DNA from: Lachnospiraceae bacterium
Lineage (GTDB): Bacteria > Bacillota > Clostridia > Lachnospirales > Lachnospiraceae
Length of the DNA stretch: 64,000 nucleotides
Direction: 5' to 3'
Assembly (NCBI GenBank): GCA_017620255.1
Contig: JAFZQU010000031.1
Location: forward strand, 62,001-126,000
The notes beneath the pieces were generated by a model. The model was not told where the DNA came from. It ran no database searches and worked only from the letters and a program-made list of their open reading frames with translations. Positions 55,803 to 64,000 of the stretch are shown here, piece after piece (the stretch's first letter is position 1; the number at the start of each line of letters is the position of its first letter). A program made the translations under genes and the position numbers.

Positions 55803-57554
55803 TCAATCCAGACGATTGACCTCTCTCTTCACATAGCTGGTGTGCAGCAGGTGATGCGCTTTCTCGCTGCCCGGCTTGCCAAGATACTCATCGTAGAGTT
55901 TCTTGATCTCCGGTACTTCGTGAGATTTGCGGACCGGTGCATTCTTATCCAGATCATACAGGACTGCAGCTCTCTTTGCACGAACATCAACGGTGTTACG
56001 TACATAACCGGGAACCTGAGGCTGTCCGCCGCCGTTTACACAGCCGCCGGGGCAGCACATGATCTCGATGAACTGATAATCTGCTTCGCCTTTTCTGATC
56101 TTGTCGAGCAGGATCTTCGCATTGGAAAGTCCGCTTGCAACTGCTACTTTTACATCCATACCGGCTACCGGATAGCTTGCTTCCTTGATACCGGCAGTAC
56201 CACGTACTTCCTGGAAGTCTAACGCTTTGAGCTCTTCGCCTGTAAGCGTTTCAACTGCGGTACGAAGGGCAGCTTCCATAACACCGCCGGTCGCGCCGAA
56301 GATCACGCCGGCACCACTGTGGTCGCCGAGCGGATGATCATAATCTTCATCCGGAAGATCGTTGAAGCGGATACCCGCCTTCTTGATCATTCTTGCCAGT
56401 TCTCTTGTGGTCAGGGCAATATCTACATCCGGAACACCGTTTGCATCCTGATCGTCACGGCCGATCTCAAACTTCTTGGCTGTGCAGGGCATGATGGAAA
56501 CCATCACGATCTTTTCCTTATCAATACCCATCTTCTCCGCAAAGTAGGATTTGGTGATCGCACCAAACATCTGCTGCGGGGATTTGCAGGATGAAAGATG
56601 ATCTAACAGATCCGGATAATAGTGCTCACAATACTTAACCCATCCGGGTGAGCAGGATGTGATCATCGGCAGAACGCCGCCGCCTTTTACACGCTCCAGC
56701 AGCTCGTTTGCTTCTTCCATGATCGTTAAGTCAGCACTGAAGTTGGTATCAAATACCTTGTCAAAGCCAAGACGGCGCAGAGCTGCGATCATCTTGCCTT
56801 CGCCGTTCGTTCCGATCGGATTGCCGAACTCTTCGGCGATACCTGCTCTTACTGCAGGAGCTGTCTGTACGACAACGTACTTCTCGGGATCCGCAATGGC
56901 TGCGAATACTTCGTCCGTGGAATCCTTCTCGTATAAAGCACCTGTCGGGCAGGCTGAGATACACTGTCCGCAGCTTACGCAGCTTGTATCTGCAAGGTCA
57001 AAATCAAATACCGAACCGATGTAGGTCTTGAATCCTCTCTCGTTCGCGCCGATCACGCCGATGCCCTGTGTCTTTTCACAAGCAGCTACGCAGCGGCGGC
57101 AGAGGATACATTTGTTGTTGTCGCGCACCATATGTGCGGCAGAGGTGTCGAGTTCGTACTGCGGTCTCTCACCGTCATACTTGTTCTCGTCCTCGATCCC
57201 GTAATCCTTGCAGAGTTTCTGCAGTTCACAGCTCTCGCTGCGGATACAGGATAAGCATTTTTTCTCATGATTGGAAAGCAGCAGTTCCAGCGTCTTCTTT
57301 CTGGATGCAACAACCTTCGGGGTGTTGGTAAATACTTCCATGCCTTCCGTGATCGGGTATACGCAGGCTGTAACCAGGCTTCTTGCGCCCTTTACTTCCA
57401 CAACGCACATTCTGCATGCGCCGATCTCATTGATCTCTTTCAGAAAACACAATGTAGGGATCTCAATCTGTGCCAGTCTTGCGGCTTCCAAGATGGTAGA
57501 GCCTTCCGGAGCAGATACTTCTACATTGTTGATTTTTAAAGTAATGTCTCCCAT
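55803..57554 (-). CDS. hydA: [FeFe] hydrogenase, catalytic subunit of the NAD-linked trimeric enzyme
   Basis: A 583-residue group A [FeFe] hydrogenase. It begins with a 2Fe-2S ferredoxin domain (GACRMCVVEVKGARSLVTAC near 48), then the His-Cys3 site (HEKKCLSCIRSESCELQKLC near 95) and two 4Fe-4S motifs (CILCRRCVAACEKTQ near 147, CVSCGQCISACPTGAL near 190). The H-cluster motifs are TSCSPGWVKYCEHYYPDLL near 300, IMPCTAKKFE near 357 and IEIMCCPGGCVNGGGQP near 500. With HydB and HydC it forms the trimer that couples NADH and ferredoxin oxidation to H2 formation or runs in reverse. It is the last gene of the operon. Confidence 0.96.
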   Translation of the reverse strand: MGDITLKINNVEVSAPEGSTILEAARLAQIEIPTLCFLKEINEIGACRMCVVEVKGARSLVTACVYPITEGMEVFTNTPKVVASRKKTLELLLSNHEKKCLSCIRSESCELQKLCKDYGIEDENKYDGERPQYELDTSAAHMVRDNNKCILCRRCVAACEKTQGIGVIGANERGFKTYIGSVFDFDLADTSCVSCGQCISACPTGALYEKDSTDEVFAAIADPEKYVVVQTAPAVRAGIAEEFGNPIGTNGEGKMIAALRRLGFDKVFDTNFSADLTIMEEANELLERVKGGGVLPMITSCSPGWVKYCEHYYPDLLDHLSSCKSPQQMFGAITKSYFAEKMGIDKEKIVMVSIMPCTAKKFEIGRDDQDANGVPDVDIALTTRELARMIKKAGIRFNDLPDEDYDHPLGDHSGAGVIFGATGGVMEAALRTAVETLTGEELKALDFQEVRGTAGIKEASYPVAGMDVKVAVASGLSNAKILLDKIRKGEADYQFIEIMCCPGGCVNGGGQPQVPGYVRNTVDVRAKRAAVLYDLDKNAPVRKSHEVPEIKKLYDEYLGKPGSEKAHHLLHTSYVKREVNRLD

Positions 57555-57569
57555 TTCGATCTCCTCCTG

Positions 57570-59369
57570 TTATTTCTTGATAATGGCACCAAACTTACAG
57601 TTATCCATACATGTTCCGCACTTCACGCACTTCTCTATATCGATCACATGCGGGTTGCGAACCTCGCCCTTGATCGCATTTGCAGGACAGTTCCTTGCGC
57701 AAAGCGTACATCCCTTACACTTATCAGGATCGATATAGAAGTTGATCAGGGACTTACATACGCCTGCAGGACACTTCTTCTCTTTGATGTGTGCTTCGTA
57801 CTCATCGCGGAAATACCTGAGTGTTGAAAGAACCGGGTTGGGAGCCGTCTGACCAAGTCCGCAGAGCGCGCTCTCTTTGATGTAGTAAGCCAAGTCTTCC
57901 AGTGTGGTAAGATCTTCCATCGTGCCTTTACCTTCGGTGATCTTATCCAGGATCTCCAGCATTCTCTTTGTACCTACACGGCAGGGTGTACATTTACCGC
58001 AGGATTCATCAACCGTAAACTGCAGGAAGAACTTCGCGATATCTACCATACAGTTGTCTTCGTCCATTACGATCAGTCCGCCGGAACCCATCATGGAACC
58101 GATGGCAAGCAGGTTATCGTAATCGATCTCAATATCAAAATGTTCAGCCGGGATACATCCGCCGGAAGGTCCGCCCGTCTGTGCAGCTTTGAACTTCTTG
58201 CCGCCCGGGATGCCGCCGCCGATATCCTCGATAACGGTACGGAGTGTTGTTCCCATGGGGATCTCTACCAGACCGGTGTTGTTGATCTTACCGCCGAGTG
58301 CAAATACCTTCGTACCTTTGGACTTCTCCGTACCTACGGAAGAGAACCATTCGGGACCGTTTAAGATGATCTGCGGGATATTTGCCCATGTCTCAACGTT
58401 GTTCAGAATGGTCGGCTTGCCAAACAGACCTTTGACTGCCGGGAAAGGCGGACGGGGTCTGGGCTCACCGCGGTTACCTTCGATGGAGGTCATCAGCGCT
58501 GTTTCTTCACCGCAGACGAATGCGCCTGCACCCAGTCTCAGATCGATGTCAAAATCAAAGCCCGTGCCGAAAATGTCTTTGCCGAGCAGACCGTACTCTC
58601 TGGCCTGTCCGATCGCGATACGCAGTCTTTCGATCGCGATGGGGTACTCAGCACGTACATAGATGTAACCCTGGTTGGATCCGATCGCATAACCCGCGAT
58701 CGCCATTGCTTCCAATACTACATGCGGATCGCCTTCCAGAACGGATCTGTCCATGAATGCACCCGGGTCGCCTTCGTCGGCGTTACAGCATACATACTTC
58801 TGTACGTTGCCGCGGTTGCCCGATGCAAATCTCCATTTCAGGCCGGTCGGGAAACCTGCGCCGCCACGGCCTCTTAATCCGGAATCCAGGATCAGCTGGA
58901 TCACTTCATCCGGAGTCATCTCTGTCAGAACCTTGCCGAGTGCTTCATAACCGCGTGTCGCGATATACTCGTCAATGTTCTCCGGATTGATCACGCCGCA
59001 GTTACGCAGTGCGATACGTGTCTGCTTCTTGTAGAAGTTCGTGTCATTCAACGATACCCTGCTTTCCTCGGGTTCGTTTTCATCATAGATCAGGCGCTCA
59101 ACCGGACGGCCTTTCAGCAGATGCTCGGAAACGATCTCCGCAACATCTTCCGGCTTTACTTCCGAATAGAAGACCGCGTCCGGATATACGACCATGATGG
59201 GGCCCTTTGCGCAAAGCCCGTGGCAACCGGTTTTCACGATCGCGATCTCATCTTCCAGGCCGTTTTTCTTTAACTCTTGCTCAAGGTTCTGAAGGATCTC
59301 CTGACTTCCCGAAGAAGTACAGCCGGTTCCTCCGCACACCAATACGTGAGAACGATACATAATAGCCAA
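57570..59369 (-). CDS. hydB: NADH-binding flavoprotein subunit of the hydrogenase (NuoF-like)
   Basis: A 599-residue NuoF-type subunit. The N-terminal thioredoxin-like 2Fe-2S domain has VCGGTGCTSSGSQEI and VKTGCHGLCAKGP. The core has the NADH-binding RGRGGAGFPTGLKWRFAS near 170, FMN-binding GAGAFVCGEETALMTSIEG near 290 and the 4Fe-4S motif SCGKCTPCRVGTKRMLEIL near 465. Two ferredoxin motifs end the protein (CKGCTLCARNCPANAIKG and CVKCGTCMDNCKFGAI). It takes electrons from NADH and is thought to host the bifurcating flavin of electron-bifurcating hydrogenases. It lies 15 bases upstream of hydA. Confidence 0.95.
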   Translation of the reverse strand: MAIMYRSHVLVCGGTGCTSSGSQEILQNLEQELKKNGLEDEIAIVKTGCHGLCAKGPIMVVYPDAVFYSEVKPEDVAEIVSEHLLKGRPVERLIYDENEPEESRVSLNDTNFYKKQTRIALRNCGVINPENIDEYIATRGYEALGKVLTEMTPDEVIQLILDSGLRGRGGAGFPTGLKWRFASGNRGNVQKYVCCNADEGDPGAFMDRSVLEGDPHVVLEAMAIAGYAIGSNQGYIYVRAEYPIAIERLRIAIGQAREYGLLGKDIFGTGFDFDIDLRLGAGAFVCGEETALMTSIEGNRGEPRPRPPFPAVKGLFGKPTILNNVETWANIPQIILNGPEWFSSVGTEKSKGTKVFALGGKINNTGLVEIPMGTTLRTVIEDIGGGIPGGKKFKAAQTGGPSGGCIPAEHFDIEIDYDNLLAIGSMMGSGGLIVMDEDNCMVDIAKFFLQFTVDESCGKCTPCRVGTKRMLEILDKITEGKGTMEDLTTLEDLAYYIKESALCGLGQTAPNPVLSTLRYFRDEYEAHIKEKKCPAGVCKSLINFYIDPDKCKGCTLCARNCPANAIKGEVRNPHVIDIEKCVKCGTCMDNCKFGAIIKK

Positions 59370-59377
59370 ACCTCCAA

Positions 59378-59749
59378 TTATAATTTGATTTTATTCAGTG
59401 TGTAATCTTCAACTACGGTTCCGCCAAGTACATGTTTTTCCAATACTTCAACAGCCTTGTCTGCGGTCATCTTAACGTATGTGACTTTCTCCTCGCCGGG
59501 CTTGTAAACCTCAACGATCGGCTCATACTGGCACAGTCCGATGCATCCGGTCTGTGTAACAGCCACATCTGTCAGCTTCCGGTCATTGACCTGTTTTACC
59601 AGCTCGTTCAGAACCGGTCTTGCTCCGCTTGCGATCCCGCAGGTGGCCATACCTACAACGACACGTGTACCGTCCTCATTTTCAGAGCGGAATCCGACCT
59701 GTCCCTGCATCTTTTCGCGGATTGCTTTTAATTCTTCCAGTGATTTCAT
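59378..59749 (-). CDS. Small thioredoxin-like 2Fe-2S ferredoxin-domain protein
   Basis: A 123-residue protein. VGMATCGIASGARPVLNEL near residue 33 and VTQTGCIGLCQYEPIVEVY near 64 give three conserved cysteines in the arrangement typical of this clostridial family, similar to the N-terminal domain of HydB. It is commonly found between hydC and hydB in trimeric-hydrogenase operons and may pass electrons or help assembly; it is not one of the three core subunits. It lies 8 bases upstream of hydB and overlaps the HATPase gene by 4 bases. Confidence 0.88.
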   Translation of the reverse strand: MKSLEELKAIREKMQGQVGFRSENEDGTRVVVGMATCGIASGARPVLNELVKQVNDRKLTDVAVTQTGCIGLCQYEPIVEVYKPGEEKVTYVKMTADKAVEVLEKHVLGGTVVEDYTLNKIKL

Positions 59750-60291
59750 TGTTCAACCTCCAATTGATTCTCTGATAAATACTCTCTCAAAAAAGCTGTC
59801 ACATCAGCGTTCTGAAAAGATACATTCCCGAGGATTTCCCTGATCTCCCTTGTATCCAGCGTGAATTCCTTCTGATCTACGCGGTAGGTATATACAAAGT
59901 CCAGATCTTCATTCATCGTGACCAGTGAAAAAATGGTACTGTTGATATCCCCAAGCGGCATGCAGTCGATATGGTCTGTGTGAAATGTCGCAAACACCTG
60001 TGTTCCCTTGTTCACCTCGGATGTGATCCGGAAACTTCCGCCGCTCGCTTCGGCTGCCTGCTTTAAAAACGGCACACCGAGCCCGATCTTTCTGGTAGTC
60101 CTTGATGTAAAGAACGGGTCGATCACACGTTCCAGCTGTTCCGCGTCCATTCCGCATCCGTCATCGTTGATCGATAACGTCATCGTTTTATCCTGCCGCA
60201 TCCTGGACACTTCGATCTCCACAAGCTTGGCGCCTGCTTTGATGGAATTCTGTGCGATATCCAAAACATTCAGAGAAATTTCAGGTAACAT
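59746..60291 (-). CDS. Histidine-kinase-like ATPase, hydrogenase-associated
   Basis: A 181-residue GHKL ATPase without a dimerisation or sensor domain. The N box is SLNVLDIAQNSIKAGAKLVE near residue 7, the G1 box NDDGCGMDAEQLERVIDPFF near 42, and the G2 box KIGLGVPFLKQAAEASGG near 72. The C-terminal 80 residues are unrelated to kinases. It recalls SpoIIAB-type anti-sigma kinases and the free-standing ATPase at 61277. Its place between hydC and the 2Fe-2S gene, overlapping both, argues for a role in controlling hydrogenase expression or activity. Confidence 0.85.
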   Translation of the reverse strand: MLPEISLNVLDIAQNSIKAGAKLVEIEVSRMRQDKTMTLSINDDGCGMDAEQLERVIDPFFTSRTTRKIGLGVPFLKQAAEASGGSFRITSEVNKGTQVFATFHTDHIDCMPLGDINSTIFSLVTMNEDLDFVYTYRVDQKEFTLDTREIREILGNVSFQNADVTAFLREYLSENQLEVEQ

Positions 60292-60782
60292 TATTTGTAC
60301 TTATCCAAAATGCCCTTTACTTGATCAGGGGTTACCTTGCCGTATACGTCATCATTCACGAGCATGACCGGAGCAAGGCCGCAAGCACCGACACATCTGC
60401 AGGTATCCAAGGAGAACTTTCCGTCGGATGTGCATTCGCCGTCAGCGATGCCGAGCTGTTTTTCGATCTCTTCGAATACAAGACCGGAGCCTTTTACATA
60501 GCAGGCTGTTCCGAGACAAACCGAAACGGTGTTTTCACCCTTCGGATTTAAATTGAACTGCGCATAGAATGTTGCGACGCCATAGACTTTCTCAACAGGT
60601 ATGCCCAGTTCATCAGAAATGATTTTTTGCACTTCATAAGGCAGATAGCCATAAATGTCCTGTGCCGCCTGCATGATCGGCATCAGACATCCGGACGTAT
60701 CACGTAAATCGTTGATCACCTTGAGAAGCTGCTGCTTTTGTTCTTCTGTTCCCTTGAAGGGAATGCCTCCACTGTTTTTCAC
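60291..60782 (-). CDS. hydC: NuoE-like 2Fe-2S subunit of the hydrogenase
   Basis: A 163-residue NuoE-type subunit. An N-terminal helical part (GCLMPIMQAAQDIYGYLPYE near 32, VEKVYGVATFYAQFNLNPKG near 63) is followed by the thioredoxin-fold 2Fe-2S domain with VCLGTACYVKGSG near 87 and the second cysteine pair in DTCRCVGACGLAPVMLVND near 127. It relays electrons within the HydABC trimer. The start codon is GTG at 60782, 6 bases after GGAGG. First gene of the leftward hydrogenase operon, divergent from the DRTGG operon. Confidence 0.95.
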   Translation of the reverse strand: MKNSGGIPFKGTEEQKQQLLKVINDLRDTSGCLMPIMQAAQDIYGYLPYEVQKIISDELGIPVEKVYGVATFYAQFNLNPKGENTVSVCLGTACYVKGSGLVFEEIEKQLGIADGECTSDGKFSLDTCRCVGACGLAPVMLVNDDVYGKVTPDQVKGILDKYK

Positions 60783-60819
60783 GCTTTACCTCCAACGCAT
60801 TTCTAAAAAACTAACAATC

Positions 60820-60840
60820 ATTATAGACATATGCTATAAT
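60820..60840. promoter_or_regulatory. Face-to-face -10 boxes in a dyad between the hydrogenase operons
   Basis: ATTATAG (60820-60826), centre ACATATG, CTATAAT (60834-60840) is a perfect dyad. It supplies TATAAT for leftward transcription of hydC and TATAAT for rightward transcription of the DRTGG operon. Matching -35 boxes are weak (TAACAA at 60812-60817 rightward, ACGACT-like leftward), which suggests that activators or repressors work here. Confidence 0.6.
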
Positions 60841-60930
60841 AATAGTCGTAGTGTTTTGATTTTATCACTAATTACGCGCTATGACAAGGTATTTACATCT
60901 GAATTCCACTTACTTTTGGGAGGTGCGGAA

Positions 60931-61293
60931 ATGAAACTCGGAGATATCAAGGATTTACTCCACGCTTCTGTTCTGACAAACTGTTGCGATCTGGACATGG
61001 ATGTGGATTCGGCGTTCTGCTCCGATATGATGAGCAACGTGCTTGCTTACGCCAACGATAAGTCCATCCTGATCACCGGTCTTTACAACGCGCAGGTGCT
61101 CCGCACGGCGGATATGATGGGGATGGCCTGCGTTGTTTTCATCGGGCGCAGGGACCCGGATCCGGAGATCATCGAGCTGGCCAACGAATTGGAGATCTGT
61201 GTGATGCTGACACGCTCTTCCATGTTCACAACCTGCGGTCTGCTTTTCTATAACGGATTGAACGGAGGTGTCCCCAGTGAGCTGCAACGATAG
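60931..61293 (+). CDS. DRTGG-domain protein, hydrogenase-associated (first)
   Basis: A 120-residue DRTGG-fold protein. LGDIKDLLHASVLTNC, SDMMSNVLAYANDKSILITG near 31, VVFIGRRDPDPEIIELANE near 68 and CVMLTRSSMFTTCGLLF near 88 follow the family pattern of ligand-binding domains related to those in CBS and HPr-kinase-like proteins; it is not itself a kinase. The ATG at 60931 follows GGGAGG by 7 bases. First gene of the rightward operon; its stop overlaps the next start by 17 bases. The ligand is unknown. A second DRTGG gene is at 63191. Confidence 0.85.
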   Translation: MKLGDIKDLLHASVLTNCCDLDMDVDSAFCSDMMSNVLAYANDKSILITGLYNAQVLRTADMMGMACVVFIGRRDPDPEIIELANELEICVMLTRSSMFTTCGLLFYNGLNGGVPSELQR

Positions 61294-61708
61294 TTTACAT
61301 TTCCAGTATGTTGTATCCAAAGACGACTTTACGCATGCAGGATCCGCCAGTTCAGACGTTAAGAACAAGCTGAAGAAAATGAACGTGGATGCCTCGGCTG
61401 TCCGCAAAGTATCGATCGCCATGTATGAAGGCGAGATCAATATGATCATCCACGCATACGGCGGGACCATTGACGTGGATATTTACGAGGACCGCATTGT
61501 GATGTGCCTCAAAGATACCGGCCCCGGAATCGCGAACATCGAAGAAGCCATGCAGGAAGGTTTCTCGACTGCACCCGCAGACGTGATCAACCTGGGATTC
61601 GGAGCCGGCATGGGATTGCCGAATATGCGCGCAAATTCAGACGAGTTCAACATTGAATCCGAGGTGGGAGTCGGAACGACCGTTACCATGACGATCTACT
61701 TCACATAG
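61277..61708 (+). CDS. Anti-sigma-factor-like HATPase
   Basis: A 143-residue RsbW/SpoIIAB-like ATPase. The N box is VRKVSIAMYEGEINMIIHAY near residue 46, the G1 box DTGPGIANIEEAMQ near 80, and the G2 region GFGAGMGLPNMRANSDEFNI near 108. Unlike the ATPase at 59746 it matches the serine-kinase anti-sigma group closely. The GTG start at 61277 is 8 bases after GGAGG, and it overlaps the DRTGG gene. No sigma factor or anti-anti-sigma gene is in the window, so its partner may be the hydrogenase-like protein downstream. Confidence 0.87.
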   Translation: MSCNDSLHFQYVVSKDDFTHAGSASSDVKNKLKKMNVDASAVRKVSIAMYEGEINMIIHAYGGTIDVDIYEDRIVMCLKDTGPGIANIEEAMQEGFSTAPADVINLGFGAGMGLPNMRANSDEFNIESEVGVGTTVTMTIYFT

Positions 61709-61889
61709 AACCGCTTAACCAGACACTGATGGAAGTGTGCTGCAGAAAGTAACATGGCGAAGCCATGTGAATTTGGGCAAACAGCCGGGCGGGAATACTA
61801 GTATTCCCCGCCGGCTATGTGCCCAAATCACGCATGTGTCTCTGACACATGGTGCTTTCCGCATCCGCATAGATCCCGGGAGAGACCAA
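61709..61889 (+). ncRNA. Highly structured leader/intercistronic RNA candidate
   Basis: Within 181 bases lie three strong hairpins: 61752-61768 (7 bp, GAA loop), 61771-61828 (9 bp closing stem, then a 15-position arm with one 2x2 mismatch and a CTAG loop) and 61833-61851 (8 bp, TCT loop). GGAAG at 61731 can pair with CTTTCC at 61855, enclosing all three in a possible four-way junction. The ribosome site GGGAG of the next gene follows at 61878-61882. No U tract is present, so it is not a terminator. I do not recognise it as a known riboswitch class. Confidence 0.55.
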
Positions 61890-63194
61890 ATGGCCGAAAA
61901 TCAAAAATTCTTCCATTCCGTATACCTGGACAAGGATAAATGCCGTGGCTGCATTACCTGTATCAAGACCTGCCCGACACAGGCGATCCGTGTGCGGAAC
62001 GGAAAAGCCCATATCATTAAGGAGTTCTGTATCGACTGCGGGGAATGTATCCGGCATTGTCCGCATTATGCCAAGCAGGCAAGTTTTGACCACATGGATG
62101 CGCTTGAGGGCTTCAAATATAAGGTGGCCCTTCCGGCGCCTTCTCTGTACGGACAGTTCAATCATCTGGATGACGTGAACATTATTCTCACAGCGCTGAC
62201 CATGATCGGGTTTGACGATGTGTTTGAGGTGGGTGCCGCTGCGGAACTCGTATCCGACGCGACCAGAAAATATCTCGCAAGCCATGCGGAACCGCAGATC
62301 CTGATCAGCACAGCCTGTCCCACGGTCACCAGACTGATCAGGATCCGTTTCCCGGAACTGCTCGACAATCTCCTGCCTCTGAAACCGCCGGTTGAAGTTG
62401 CCGCGGAACTCGCAAGAAAAAGAGCCGTCGCGCAGACGGGACTGAAGCCGGAAGAGATCGGGATCGCATTCATATCCCCCTGCCCTTCAAAGGTGACAGC
62501 CGTGCAGGATCCTCTCGGTATCCCGCACAGCAGTATAGATGTCGTCCTGGCTACCAGAGAGATCTATCCTCTGATGCTGTCCGCCATGAAAGAAGCCAGA
62601 GTCAATCCGATCGAACACTGTCTTTCCGGCAAGATCGGTGTCGGCTGGGGACTGAGCGGCGGAGAAGCTGCCGGCATTCTCTTGGACAACTATATCGCCG
62701 CCGACGGGATTGAAAATGTGGTGCGTGTTCTGGAAGATCTCGAAGACGAAAAATTCCAGATGGATATCCGGTTTGTGGAACTGAATGCCTGCCCGGGCGG
62801 CTGCGTCGGTGGTGTTCTGAATGTGGAAAACCCGTTTGCTGCCAGTTCCAAAATGAAACATCTGAAGAAATATCTGCCGGTCGCACTGTCTCATCCGGAG
62901 GATTTCCCGTTCAAGACGGATATGGAACTGACGGAAGAGATCGCGTACGAACCCGTATATATGCTTGGTGCCAGCATGCTGGAAAGCATCAACAACATGG
63001 TGCGTCTGGAAAAACTCATGCGTATCCTTCCGGGCCTCGACTGCGGCGGATGCGGCGCACCGACCTGCAAAGCACTCGTTGAAGATCACATCCGCGGAAA
63101 AGGCGATATCCACAGTTGTACCGAACTGCTGCGGCGCTATTATGTATCCGGGGAAGATCCTTTTGAAGTACTGGAGGAAGAGAACAACTTATGA
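61890..63194 (+). CDS. Hydrogenase-like iron-sulfur protein, probable redox sensor
   Basis: A 434-residue protein. Two N-terminal 4Fe-4S motifs (CRGCITCIKTCPTQAI and CIDCGECIRHCP) lead to an [FeFe] hydrogenase-like C-terminal domain with altered H-cluster motifs: STACPTVTRLI near 135 (canonical TSCCPxW), ISPCPSKVTA near 192 (canonical MPCxxK) and ELNACPGGCVGGV near 305. A C-terminal GLDCGGCGAPTCKALVEDHI with a later cysteine resembles the RnfB-type cluster domain. It is shorter than HydA and has no PAS domain. It is best read as a sensory or regulatory homologue (HydS/HsfB-like), not a bulk catalyst. The ATG at 61890 has GGGAG 7 bases upstream. Confidence 0.85.
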   Translation: MAENQKFFHSVYLDKDKCRGCITCIKTCPTQAIRVRNGKAHIIKEFCIDCGECIRHCPHYAKQASFDHMDALEGFKYKVALPAPSLYGQFNHLDDVNIILTALTMIGFDDVFEVGAAAELVSDATRKYLASHAEPQILISTACPTVTRLIRIRFPELLDNLLPLKPPVEVAAELARKRAVAQTGLKPEEIGIAFISPCPSKVTAVQDPLGIPHSSIDVVLATREIYPLMLSAMKEARVNPIEHCLSGKIGVGWGLSGGEAAGILLDNYIAADGIENVVRVLEDLEDEKFQMDIRFVELNACPGGCVGGVLNVENPFAASSKMKHLKKYLPVALSHPEDFPFKTDMELTEEIAYEPVYMLGASMLESINNMVRLEKLMRILPGLDCGGCGAPTCKALVEDHIRGKGDIHSCTELLRRYYVSGEDPFEVLEEENNL

Positions 63195-63520
63195 CCATCA
63201 AAGAACTGATCGACAAAAACATCTTTACACTGCTGAATGACGGAGAAAATCATGATGTTGCCCTGACCGGATGCTACTGCTGCGATCTGCTGAGCATCGC
63301 CATGGGACATGCTCCGGAAGGCTGCATCTGGATCACGGTCATGAACAATGTAAACACGCTTGCCGTCGCTTCCCTGGCGGAATGCGGCTGTGTTGTTCTT
63401 GCCTGTGATGTGGTTGCGGACGATGCTTTCCTTGCAAAAGCAAAAGAACAGGGCATTACCGTATTCCGGTCCGACCTTCCGGTATTCGATGCCGCACTGA
63501 AAGCTTATAACTGCTTATGA
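63191..63520 (+). CDS. DRTGG-domain protein, hydrogenase-associated (second)
   Basis: A 109-residue single-domain DRTGG-like protein (TIKELIDKNIFTLLNDGENH, VALTGCYCCDLLSIAMGHA near 24, VMNNVNTLAVASLAECGCVV near 50, GITVFRSDLPVFDAALKAY near 87). It keeps the fold pattern of the first copy but diverges in sequence and has an unusual CYCCDLL cysteine group. It overlaps the preceding gene by 4 bases and the PHP gene by 4 bases. Ligand and role are unknown; the two DRTGG proteins may form a heterodimer. Confidence 0.82.
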   Translation: MTIKELIDKNIFTLLNDGENHDVALTGCYCCDLLSIAMGHAPEGCIWITVMNNVNTLAVASLAECGCVVLACDVVADDAFLAKAKEQGITVFRSDLPVFDAALKAYNCL

Positions 63521-64000
63521 TCCCGATCTCCTACGACATGCATCTGCATTCCTGTCTGTCTCCCTGCGGAGACGACGACATGACGCCCGGCAATATCATC
63601 GGTATGGCCTCTTTGCTGGGATTGAATGCCGTTGCCCTGACAGATCACAACACGTGCAAAAACTGTCCGGCTTTTTTGGAATTTGCCGACAGTTTCGGCA
63701 TCATTGCGATCCCCGGCATGGAACTGACAACCGCAGAAGAAGTGCATGTCCTTTGTTATTTTAAAGATCTTACGGATGCGCTTGCTTTCGACCGTTATGT
63801 GGAGGATAAGATCCTGCCCATTCCCAACAACCCGCAATTCTTCGGGAACCAGATCCTGACGGGAACAGACGACGAGCCTTGCGGAACCTTCGATACACTG
63901 CTGATCTCCGCAACTTCCATTTCGTTTGACCAGGTATACGATCTTGTAAAGGAATATCACGGTATCATGGTCCCGGCGCATTTAGACAAAAGCTCCACCA
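63517..64000 (+). CDS. PHP-domain phosphoesterase, cut by the right window edge
   Basis: 161 codons are visible from the ATG at 63517, which overlaps the preceding stop (ATGA). The metal site is typical of PHP enzymes: DMHLHSCLSPCGDDD with the HxH pair near residue 9, ALTDHNTCKNCPAF near 40, and GMELTTAEEVHVLCYF near 66. MVPAHLDKSST near 150 carries another conserved histidine. Family members hydrolyse phosphoesters, such as histidinol phosphate or 3',5'-nucleotide bisphosphates. In other clostridia a PHP gene also follows the hydrogenase-like and DRTGG genes. The C-terminal part lies outside the window. Confidence 0.88.
   Translation, partial: MIPISYDMHLHSCLSPCGDDDMTPGNIIGMASLLGLNAVALTDHNTCKNCPAFLEFADSFGIIAIPGMELTTAEEVHVLCYFKDLTDALAFDRYVEDKILPIPNNPQFFGNQILTGTDDEPCGTFDTLLISATSISFDQVYDLVKEYHGIMVPAHLDKSST

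Follow-up and report, generated by a model that had tools for sequence, protein, structure and literature searches.

A five-gene set divergent from the HydABC operon

We analysed a 64,000-nucleotide stretch of the genome of a Lachnospiraceae bacterium (contig JAFZQU010000031.1, positions 62,001 to 126,000; this whole stretch is called the window). At its right-hand end five genes, D1-AT1-HydS-D2-PHP, run rightward from 60931 and diverge from a leftward set in the order hydC-AT2-Fd2-hydB-hydA, which carries the genes of the hydrogenase HydABC. Comparison of gene content across genomes shows that the five genes, plus AT2, are inherited largely as a unit. The features of the locus are as follows.

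60931..61293, + strand: D1, first DRTGG protein, 120 residues (Pfam DRTGG match of 37.9 bits, cut-off 25.2)
61277..61708, + strand: AT1, SpoIIAB-like GHKL ATPase (HATPase_c_2 match of 45 bits; SpoIIAB is the best NCBIfam match)
61709..61889, + strand: AT1-HydS intergenic gap, forming a strong hairpin (palindrome of 58 bases, 61771-61828)
61890..63194, + strand: HydS, assigned as a group D (M2e) sensory [FeFe]-hydrogenase, 434 residues (16 invariant Cys, A142, S196, K201)
63191..63520, + strand: D2, putative second DRTGG protein, divergent, 109 residues (16.6 bits and profile kinship with D1)
63517..64000, + strand, running past the window end: PHP phosphoesterase-type protein, 241 residues (PF02811 match of 37.2 bits, cut-off 26.4)
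60783..60930, no strand: hydC-D1 intergenic region (best Rex-like site with 3 mismatches)
60291..60782, - strand: HydC, NuoE-like (family matches)
59746..60291, - strand: AT2, assigned as sixth member of the set, a GHKL ATPase that has a C-terminal domain of its own (family match, profiles and model)
59378..59749, - strand: Fd2, thioredoxin-like [2Fe-2S]-type protein (family match and profiles)
57570..59369, - strand: HydB, NuoF-like (family matches)
55803..57554, - strand: HydA, [FeFe] hydrogenase of group A6 (NF040763 match of 914 bits, cut-off 765)

An earlier, sequence-only reading of this DNA had described five overlapping genes diverging from HydABC and a second HATPase within the hydABC operon itself. 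The five genes, their divergence and the second ATPase (AT2) are real; the overlap holds for D1/AT1, HydS/D2 and D2/PHP, but AT1 and HydS are separated by 181 bases. The open reading frame (ORF) of AT1 opens at 61268, and the GTG at 61277 has the better ribosome site. The whole PHP gene was seen in the extended locus (L002:5518-6243). The AT1-HydS gap is strongly structured (RNA z-score -6.1), and its hairpin has neither a second copy in the window genome nor an Rfam match, so that a dispersed repeat and an Rfam family were ruled out by genome search and Rfam scan. The gap is shorter in certain relatives, at about 20 to 70 bases in G116, G037 and G110.

HydS as a full-length group D hydrogenase

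The third protein had been read as a truncated [FeFe] homologue of a kind proposed to be a sensor. It proved to be full length, with three domains (2x4Fe4S, Fe_hyd_lg_C and PF04060) and, by Pfam scan, no PAS domain. All 16 cysteines, namely eight of the ferredoxin type, four of the H-domain and the C-terminal Cx2Cx4Cx16C (C385, C388, C393 and C410 in the window), are fixed in 30 of 30 relatives, the window included. In an enlarged alignment of 163 rows, which includes the window gene twice, the first 12 cysteines (two N-terminal 4Fe4S motifs and the four of the H-cluster) occur in every row and the last four in 162, the exception (L099) ending early. With its full length and 16 cysteines, a truncated HydA was rejected. 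Group D traits are given as the replacement of C299 and a change of M353 to Ser/Thr, in CpI numbering (PMC8163306), and the window protein carries A142 at the proton-relay Cys (C299 in CpI) and S196 at CpI M353. These features argue for a complete group D (M2e) sensory [FeFe]-hydrogenase, a class already proposed in print as a sensor.

A close known counterpart is Tam HydS of Thermoanaerobacter mathranii, which has two N-terminal 4Fe4S sites, an H-domain and a C-terminal Cx2Cx4Cx16C, has lost C299, carries Ser/Thr for M353, has no PAS domain and adjoins HydABC (PMC8163306); the window HydS differs in being flanked by AT1 and D2. Group D enzymes have been placed upstream of bifurcating hydrogenases, with a histidine/serine kinase between them (PMC3561251). 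In a 2026 study of Tam HydS, H2 did not reduce the C-terminal cluster, and the study called the finding of interaction partners critical for clarifying the mechanism (PMC13104023). Tam HydS turns over H2 slowly in vitro (PMC8163306), and one could argue from this for HydS as an additional working hydrogenase, with the other genes forming an unrelated operon. We consider this very improbable, as the gene order and co-inheritance described below are too tight and the set also occurs without HydS.

Co-inheritance of the cassette

Gene neighbourhoods were compared in two main groups of loci: the "named" loci (L033-L112), which are the best 80 of 547 confirmed relatives and come mostly from Lachnospiraceae and related families, and a class sample (L113-L172) chosen for spread across families. 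The five-gene set was complete in 61 of the 66 loci with enough flank among the 80 named-genome loci and the window, and in 48 of 51 such loci of the class sample. This arrangement exceeds chance. No fusions between cassette members were seen in the first 140 loci.

Co-occurrence was surveyed with profile searches over 391 genomes of the window's class (Clostridia, as judged by its named relatives), HydS being called present at E<1e-70, a threshold set at a gap in the score table (no values between 5.6e-43 and 2.9e-75). HydS was found in 184 genomes and D1 in 188: both in 182, HydS only in 2, D1 only in 6 and neither in 201. In both HydS-only genomes (G049, G084) HydS sits at a contig end. Among those with D1 only, contig ends truncate the sequence in G334 and G132, G196 retains D1-AT1 as a pair in the absence of HydS (L177), G065 holds a D2-type protein, G226 is a weak match and G355 is the remaining case. 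AT1, PHP and Fd2 were followed in a subset of 80 genomes, every one with HydA and half of them with HydS. AT1 was present in 40/40 HydS-bearing genomes vs 1/40 lacking HydS (G132), PHP in 38/40 vs 0/40, and Fd2 in 38/40 vs 18/40. In a phylum sample of 179 genomes D1 turned up in 72; except for the window's own, these are all listed under other classes. G305 (L134 and L135) and G505 (L258 and L259) each contain two cassettes or sets resembling one.

HydABC as the main neighbour, and AT2 as a member of the set

A HydA or HydB homologue lay within about 9.5 kb in 37 of the 41 named loci having 8 kb on both sides, and in 33 of the 44 class-sample loci with the same flanks. The named loci are mostly divergent from HydABC (33/37); in the class sample HydABC is mostly co-directional and downstream (28/33), and divergent in 2/33. 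In Clostridium thermocellum the published locus numbers of HydS (Cthe_0335) and hydABC (Cthe_0340-0342) agree with the co-directional order, and Cthe_0333-0334 and Cthe_0336-0337 would probably be the remaining members. The linkage to HydABC proposed from the sequence alone was thus borne out by neighbourhood comparison, which could have found no co-occurrence and found it in both samples. Where HydABC was not in view, Pfam scans of 20 neighbours in 14 loci gave no recurrent partner; these neighbours belong mostly to housekeeping families, with two redox-type proteins (L134 only) and four proteins without a family.

Group A6 HydA is present in 170/184 genomes with HydS and in 146/207 without it. 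AT2 was found in 166 of the 170 genomes having both HydA and HydS, in 16 of the 146 having HydA without HydS, and in 12 of the 14 having HydS without HydA. On the HydB tree the state of HydS changes 14 times and that of AT2 7 times, so the co-occurrence of the two is not supported as the product of one HydABC clade. In 13 independent pairs differing in HydS, AT2 agrees in 6 and opposes in 0 (p 0.031). Among 29 hyd operons visible in genomes without HydS, 17 are plain hydC-hydB-hydA and 10 carry AT2; the remaining two are L201, with Fd2 only, and the low-scoring L218. By this gene distribution AT2 tracks the cassette rather than HydABC and belongs to the set, in agreement with the suggestion that the second ATPase is part of it. 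AT2 as a required subunit of HydABC was rejected as a general rule, given the 130 of 146 HydA-bearing, HydS-less genomes without AT2 and the 17 plain operons.

These counts also bear on the idea that AT2, the DRTGG proteins, PHP and the Fe-S protein help to build or protect HydABC or Rnf, in assembly or quality control. AT2 consists of a GHKL ATPase domain and a C-terminal domain of about 75 residues (model with predicted local distance difference test score of 90). Among solved structures, histidine-kinase ATPase domains are closest to AT2, and MutL and branched-chain ketoacid dehydrogenase kinase match more weakly; the fold search gave no outstanding full-length match, the ATPase part alone matching GHKL proteins. 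That the ATPase domain matches several GHKL kinds, MutL among them, and that AT2 and Fd2 lie within hydABC would suit an assembly role. However, the genomes lacking AT2 and the plain operons indicate that AT2 is not generally needed for building HydABC, and we regard such a role as quite unlikely.

R6, E41, K86 and R88 of HydB are fixed in the presence of AT2 (112-113 of 113) and variable in 16 sequences without it, a comparison in which Fd2 presence is confounded with AT2. In Fd2 just three cysteines (C37, C69, C73) are invariant in 102 aligned sequences, and because of this its cluster binding may be unusual or absent. In L224 an AT2-bearing cassette is followed downstream by a repeat of hydC-Fd2-hydB-hydA, whose second hydA scores low.

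Rnf and Nqr operons beside the cassette

On reading individual loci, rather than from the neighbour Pfam scans, we recognised that the cassette also adjoins rnf operons. Two loci (L131, L251) have the order D1-AT1-HydS-D2-PHP-AT2-rnfCDGEAB, and three (L180, L231, L232) have D1-AT1-D2-PHP-AT2-rnfCDGEAB, without HydS; RnfC, RnfD and RnfB of L180 were confirmed by family models. In L227, L228 and L239 the module is followed by hydC-AT2-Fd2-hydB-rnfCDGEAB, without hydA, and L120 and L230 are alike but cut at the right-hand end; in these five loci a HydBC diaphorase is possibly coupled to Rnf. L273, outside the window's class, reads D1-AT1-HydS-D2-PHP-rnfCDGEAB. Across the 140 loci of the two sets that were not picked for Rnf, Rnf was in view in 5 (L105, L119, L120, L128, L131; a weak lone RnfD match of 75 bits in L107 was excluded), against about 1.1 expected if there is one operon per 2.5 Mb and a view of 20 kb. 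L221-L240 were selected mostly because their AT2 is separate from HydA, and some of L254-L273 for unusual D1/D2 spacing; the numbers of Rnf-bearing and HydS-less loci there are therefore not frequencies. In two further genomes (G211, G269) an nqr-type operon has a HydS-like gene some 0.5 to 1 kb upstream of it (L248, L250), and the rest of the cassette lies elsewhere, beside rnf; L250 has an opposite-strand ORF between the HydS-like gene and the operon, and of the operon's models NqrD passes its cut-off but NqrF and NqrB do not.

Judged by these gene orders, the neighbour enzyme appears exchangeable, being either HydABC or Rnf. The proposal that the set serves the hydrogenase therefore stands in that HydABC is the main neighbour, and falls short in that the set also adjoins Rnf and that HydS may be absent.

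The HydS proteins of these loci differ at residue 201, which aligns with CpI K358. It is Lys in 148/163 rows, and in 92/93 rows with HydA in view. Arg occurs in 5 of the 8 rows with Rnf and no HydA and in both Nqr-linked rows, i.e. in 7 of 10 Rnf or Nqr contexts without HydA (p 4.7e-8, descent ignored). On the tree there are only 3 changes, with 2 agreeing pairs and 2 without change, and the Rnf-linked L105, L131, L251 and L273 keep Lys201. An A-P-S stretch at HydS 83-85 drifts in the same lineages; the window HydS retains both, and with them the H-cluster residues that were checked. Loss of Lys201 would be in keeping with H2 sensing having been lost in sets that do not partner HydA; with about three events behind it, we offer this as a lead only. 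As an established sign of lost H2 sensing it was set aside, since the tree events are too few and four Rnf-linked loci keep Lys. The HydS region seems to be split into pieces in cassette loci L256, L267 and L272.

An exchangeable input and possible protein pairs

Four sets without HydS (L257, L258, L259, L260) encode an AT1 whose N-terminus bears two CBS stretches in tandem (PF00571, E 5e-30 to 6e-32). Among 177 AT1 ORFs, CBS was found in 0/162 with HydS beside them and in 4/15 without (p 3.5e-5; p 1.9e-4 after three contig-cut rows were dropped and G505 was counted once). The input, too, appears from these fusions to be exchangeable between HydS and a CBS pair. Since the CBS pair sits on AT1 where HydS is absent, the sensor probably feeds AT1, and this is our best clue to the order of events; the genomic evidence is thus in favour of the earlier suggestion that the iron-sulfur protein is the input and the ATPase the next step. 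A CBS pair taking the place of HydS also fits sensing better than assembly.

Partial sets hint at how the proteins may be grouped. D1-AT1 is seen without D2 in view in L177, L259 and L262, and D2 with hydC-AT2-Fd2-hydB-hydA, without D1, AT1 or PHP in view, in L217, L210, L268 and L270, and in L182, whose left end is cut; L217 and L270 have another, lower-scoring HydS-like gene further away (268 and 273 bits). Two pairs, D1-AT1 and D2-AT2, are therefore possible.

Properties of the cassette proteins

AT1 gives 62 bits against the SpoIIAB equivalog TIGR01925, below the cut-off of 135, and its profile matches SpoIIAB in the PDB at 7.5e-11, the closest among solved structures. By these scores it is a homologue of SpoIIAB and not its equivalog. 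The catalytic residues ExxxN, DxGxG and GxGxG are kept in 136/136 sequences. Neither a HisKA dimerisation domain nor a receiver, as in a two-component system, was found, Pfam showing the ATPase domain alone in AT1 and AT2. D1 belongs to the DRTGG family by family test, Pfam cut-off and fold. D2 falls under the Pfam cut-off of 25.2, and is profile-level kin of D1, as iterated profiles seeded with either protein each retrieved 273 ORFs; its residues D32 and S35 are each kept in 133/134. In PHP, H9, H11, H44, E69, H77 and H155 are kept in 129/129 and D207/H209 in 128/129, which together we take to be the metal ligand set. The catalytic residues thus show no variation in AT1 and hardly any in PHP or AT2.

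Evidence on transcriptional control

The resemblance of AT1 to SpoIIAB raises transcriptional partner switching, in which AT1 with D1 (or AT2) would hold and release a sigma factor or repressor encoded elsewhere and so set hydABC or rnf expression. AT1 shares with SpoIIAB/RsbW modules the small GHKL ATPase and its catalytic pattern; the cassette differs in having DRTGG and PHP proteins in place of the STAS antagonist, the PP2C phosphatase and the sigma factor. Domain scans of the cassette proteins gave no STAS, PP2C, sigma factor or DNA-binding domain (STAS, PP2C and sigma factors were sought within the cassette only). The divergence of the cassette from hydABC over a shared control region would favour switching in the named loci, but hardly in the class sample.

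Of 64 divergent hydC-D1 regions, 13 contain a Rex-like site with <=2 mismatches (100 shuffled sets: mean 0.63, maximum 4). Part of the family therefore has a point of transcriptional control here, and from the site counts Rex is likely to exert it. The same sites suggest that another regulator already handles transcription there. In the window the region has a 3-mismatch site only, 7 of 300 shuffles being equally good, and the genome, in an assembly rated 99.8% complete, has no match to the Rex N-terminal domain (PF06971); Rex as the output at the window is accordingly not supported. On balance we hold partner switching to be unlikely, while giving it more weight than an assembly role.

A proposed mechanism and the points against it

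We favour, as probable, the reading that the set is a portable signalling cassette adjusting cytoplasmic ferredoxin/NAD electron-transfer complexes. HydS would read H2 or redox state through its H-cluster and then change shape; AT1 would receive this signal and phosphorylate or bind the DRTGG proteins, D1 first; PHP would remove the mark; and D2, with an AT2 encoded in or at the target operon, would carry the signal on, either to the enzyme complex itself or to its expression. In other lineages the input would come not from HydS but from a CBS pair joined to AT1 in one protein. The kinase, phosphatase and target chemistry we infer.

Several observations weigh against this reading. Linkage to Rnf is a minority feature, seen in single loci of several families. 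AT2 is unchanged in 7 of the 13 independent pairs although HydS differs. No Ser/Thr specific to AT2-bearing HydABC passed the thresholds, save HydA T358 (94/102). Eleven AT1 genes have neither CBS nor an adjoining HydS: contig ends truncate L175, L176 and L179, and HydS lies at a greater distance in L097 and L103. For the rest no input is visible; of these, Rnf can be seen in L180, L231, L232, L261 and L262, and HydS has been lost from L177. Strict pairing fails in L255 (D1 without AT1), L261 (AT1 without a detected D1) and L269 (D2 without AT2). D1 and D2 may bind a ligand instead of accepting phosphate. Finally, association is not interaction.

A fuller version of the proposal, which we put forward tentatively, is that of an undescribed signal system in which a swappable sensor (HydS for H2 or redox, or a nucleotide-sensing CBS pair) would drive a SpoIIAB-like ATPase; this ATPase would in turn act directly on HydABC or Rnf by way of a pair of DRTGG adaptors, PHP as the phosphatase and AT2 as another GHKL ATPase, with AT1-D1 as the sensing pair, D2-AT2 as the target pair, and no sigma factor, response regulator or DNA-binding protein.

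Relation to known systems and significance

Group C (M2f) HydS proteins (T. maritima HydS; HfsB) are likewise sensory hydrogenases beside catalytic hydrogenase genes, and HfsB adjoins a Ser-type signalling protein, the serine phosphatase homologue HfsC (PMC10055695, PMC11837493). The group C protein has a fused PAS domain; the set described here has none, its partners being DRTGG, PHP and two ATPases. The CBS-DRTGG region of the Clostridium perfringens pyrophosphatase (3l2b) differs in that here the two domains are on separate proteins, there is no pyrophosphatase and CBS is fused to the ATPase. Searches of the open-licence PMC literature pairing DRTGG, PHP, Rnf, CBS or anti-sigma with hydrogenase returned nothing on this set, the nearest paper being PMC3561251, which notes the kinase. 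The group D class, its position beside HydABC and a nearby kinase are already in print. As far as the searches show, the all-or-none occurrence of HydS with D1 (and the way AT1 and PHP follow HydS in the 80-genome subset), the tracking of the set by AT2, its placement beside Rnf with or without HydS, and the CBS-AT1 fusions are new, and quite possibly the mechanism is new as well.

Five candidate partners are hereby named for group D HydS and an order is proposed for them, with natural swaps of the sensor and of the neighbour enzyme supplied. If true, the proposal would link HydABC and Rnf under one switch, and would account for the way in which many anaerobes may adjust their H2 production and ferredoxin/NAD balance.

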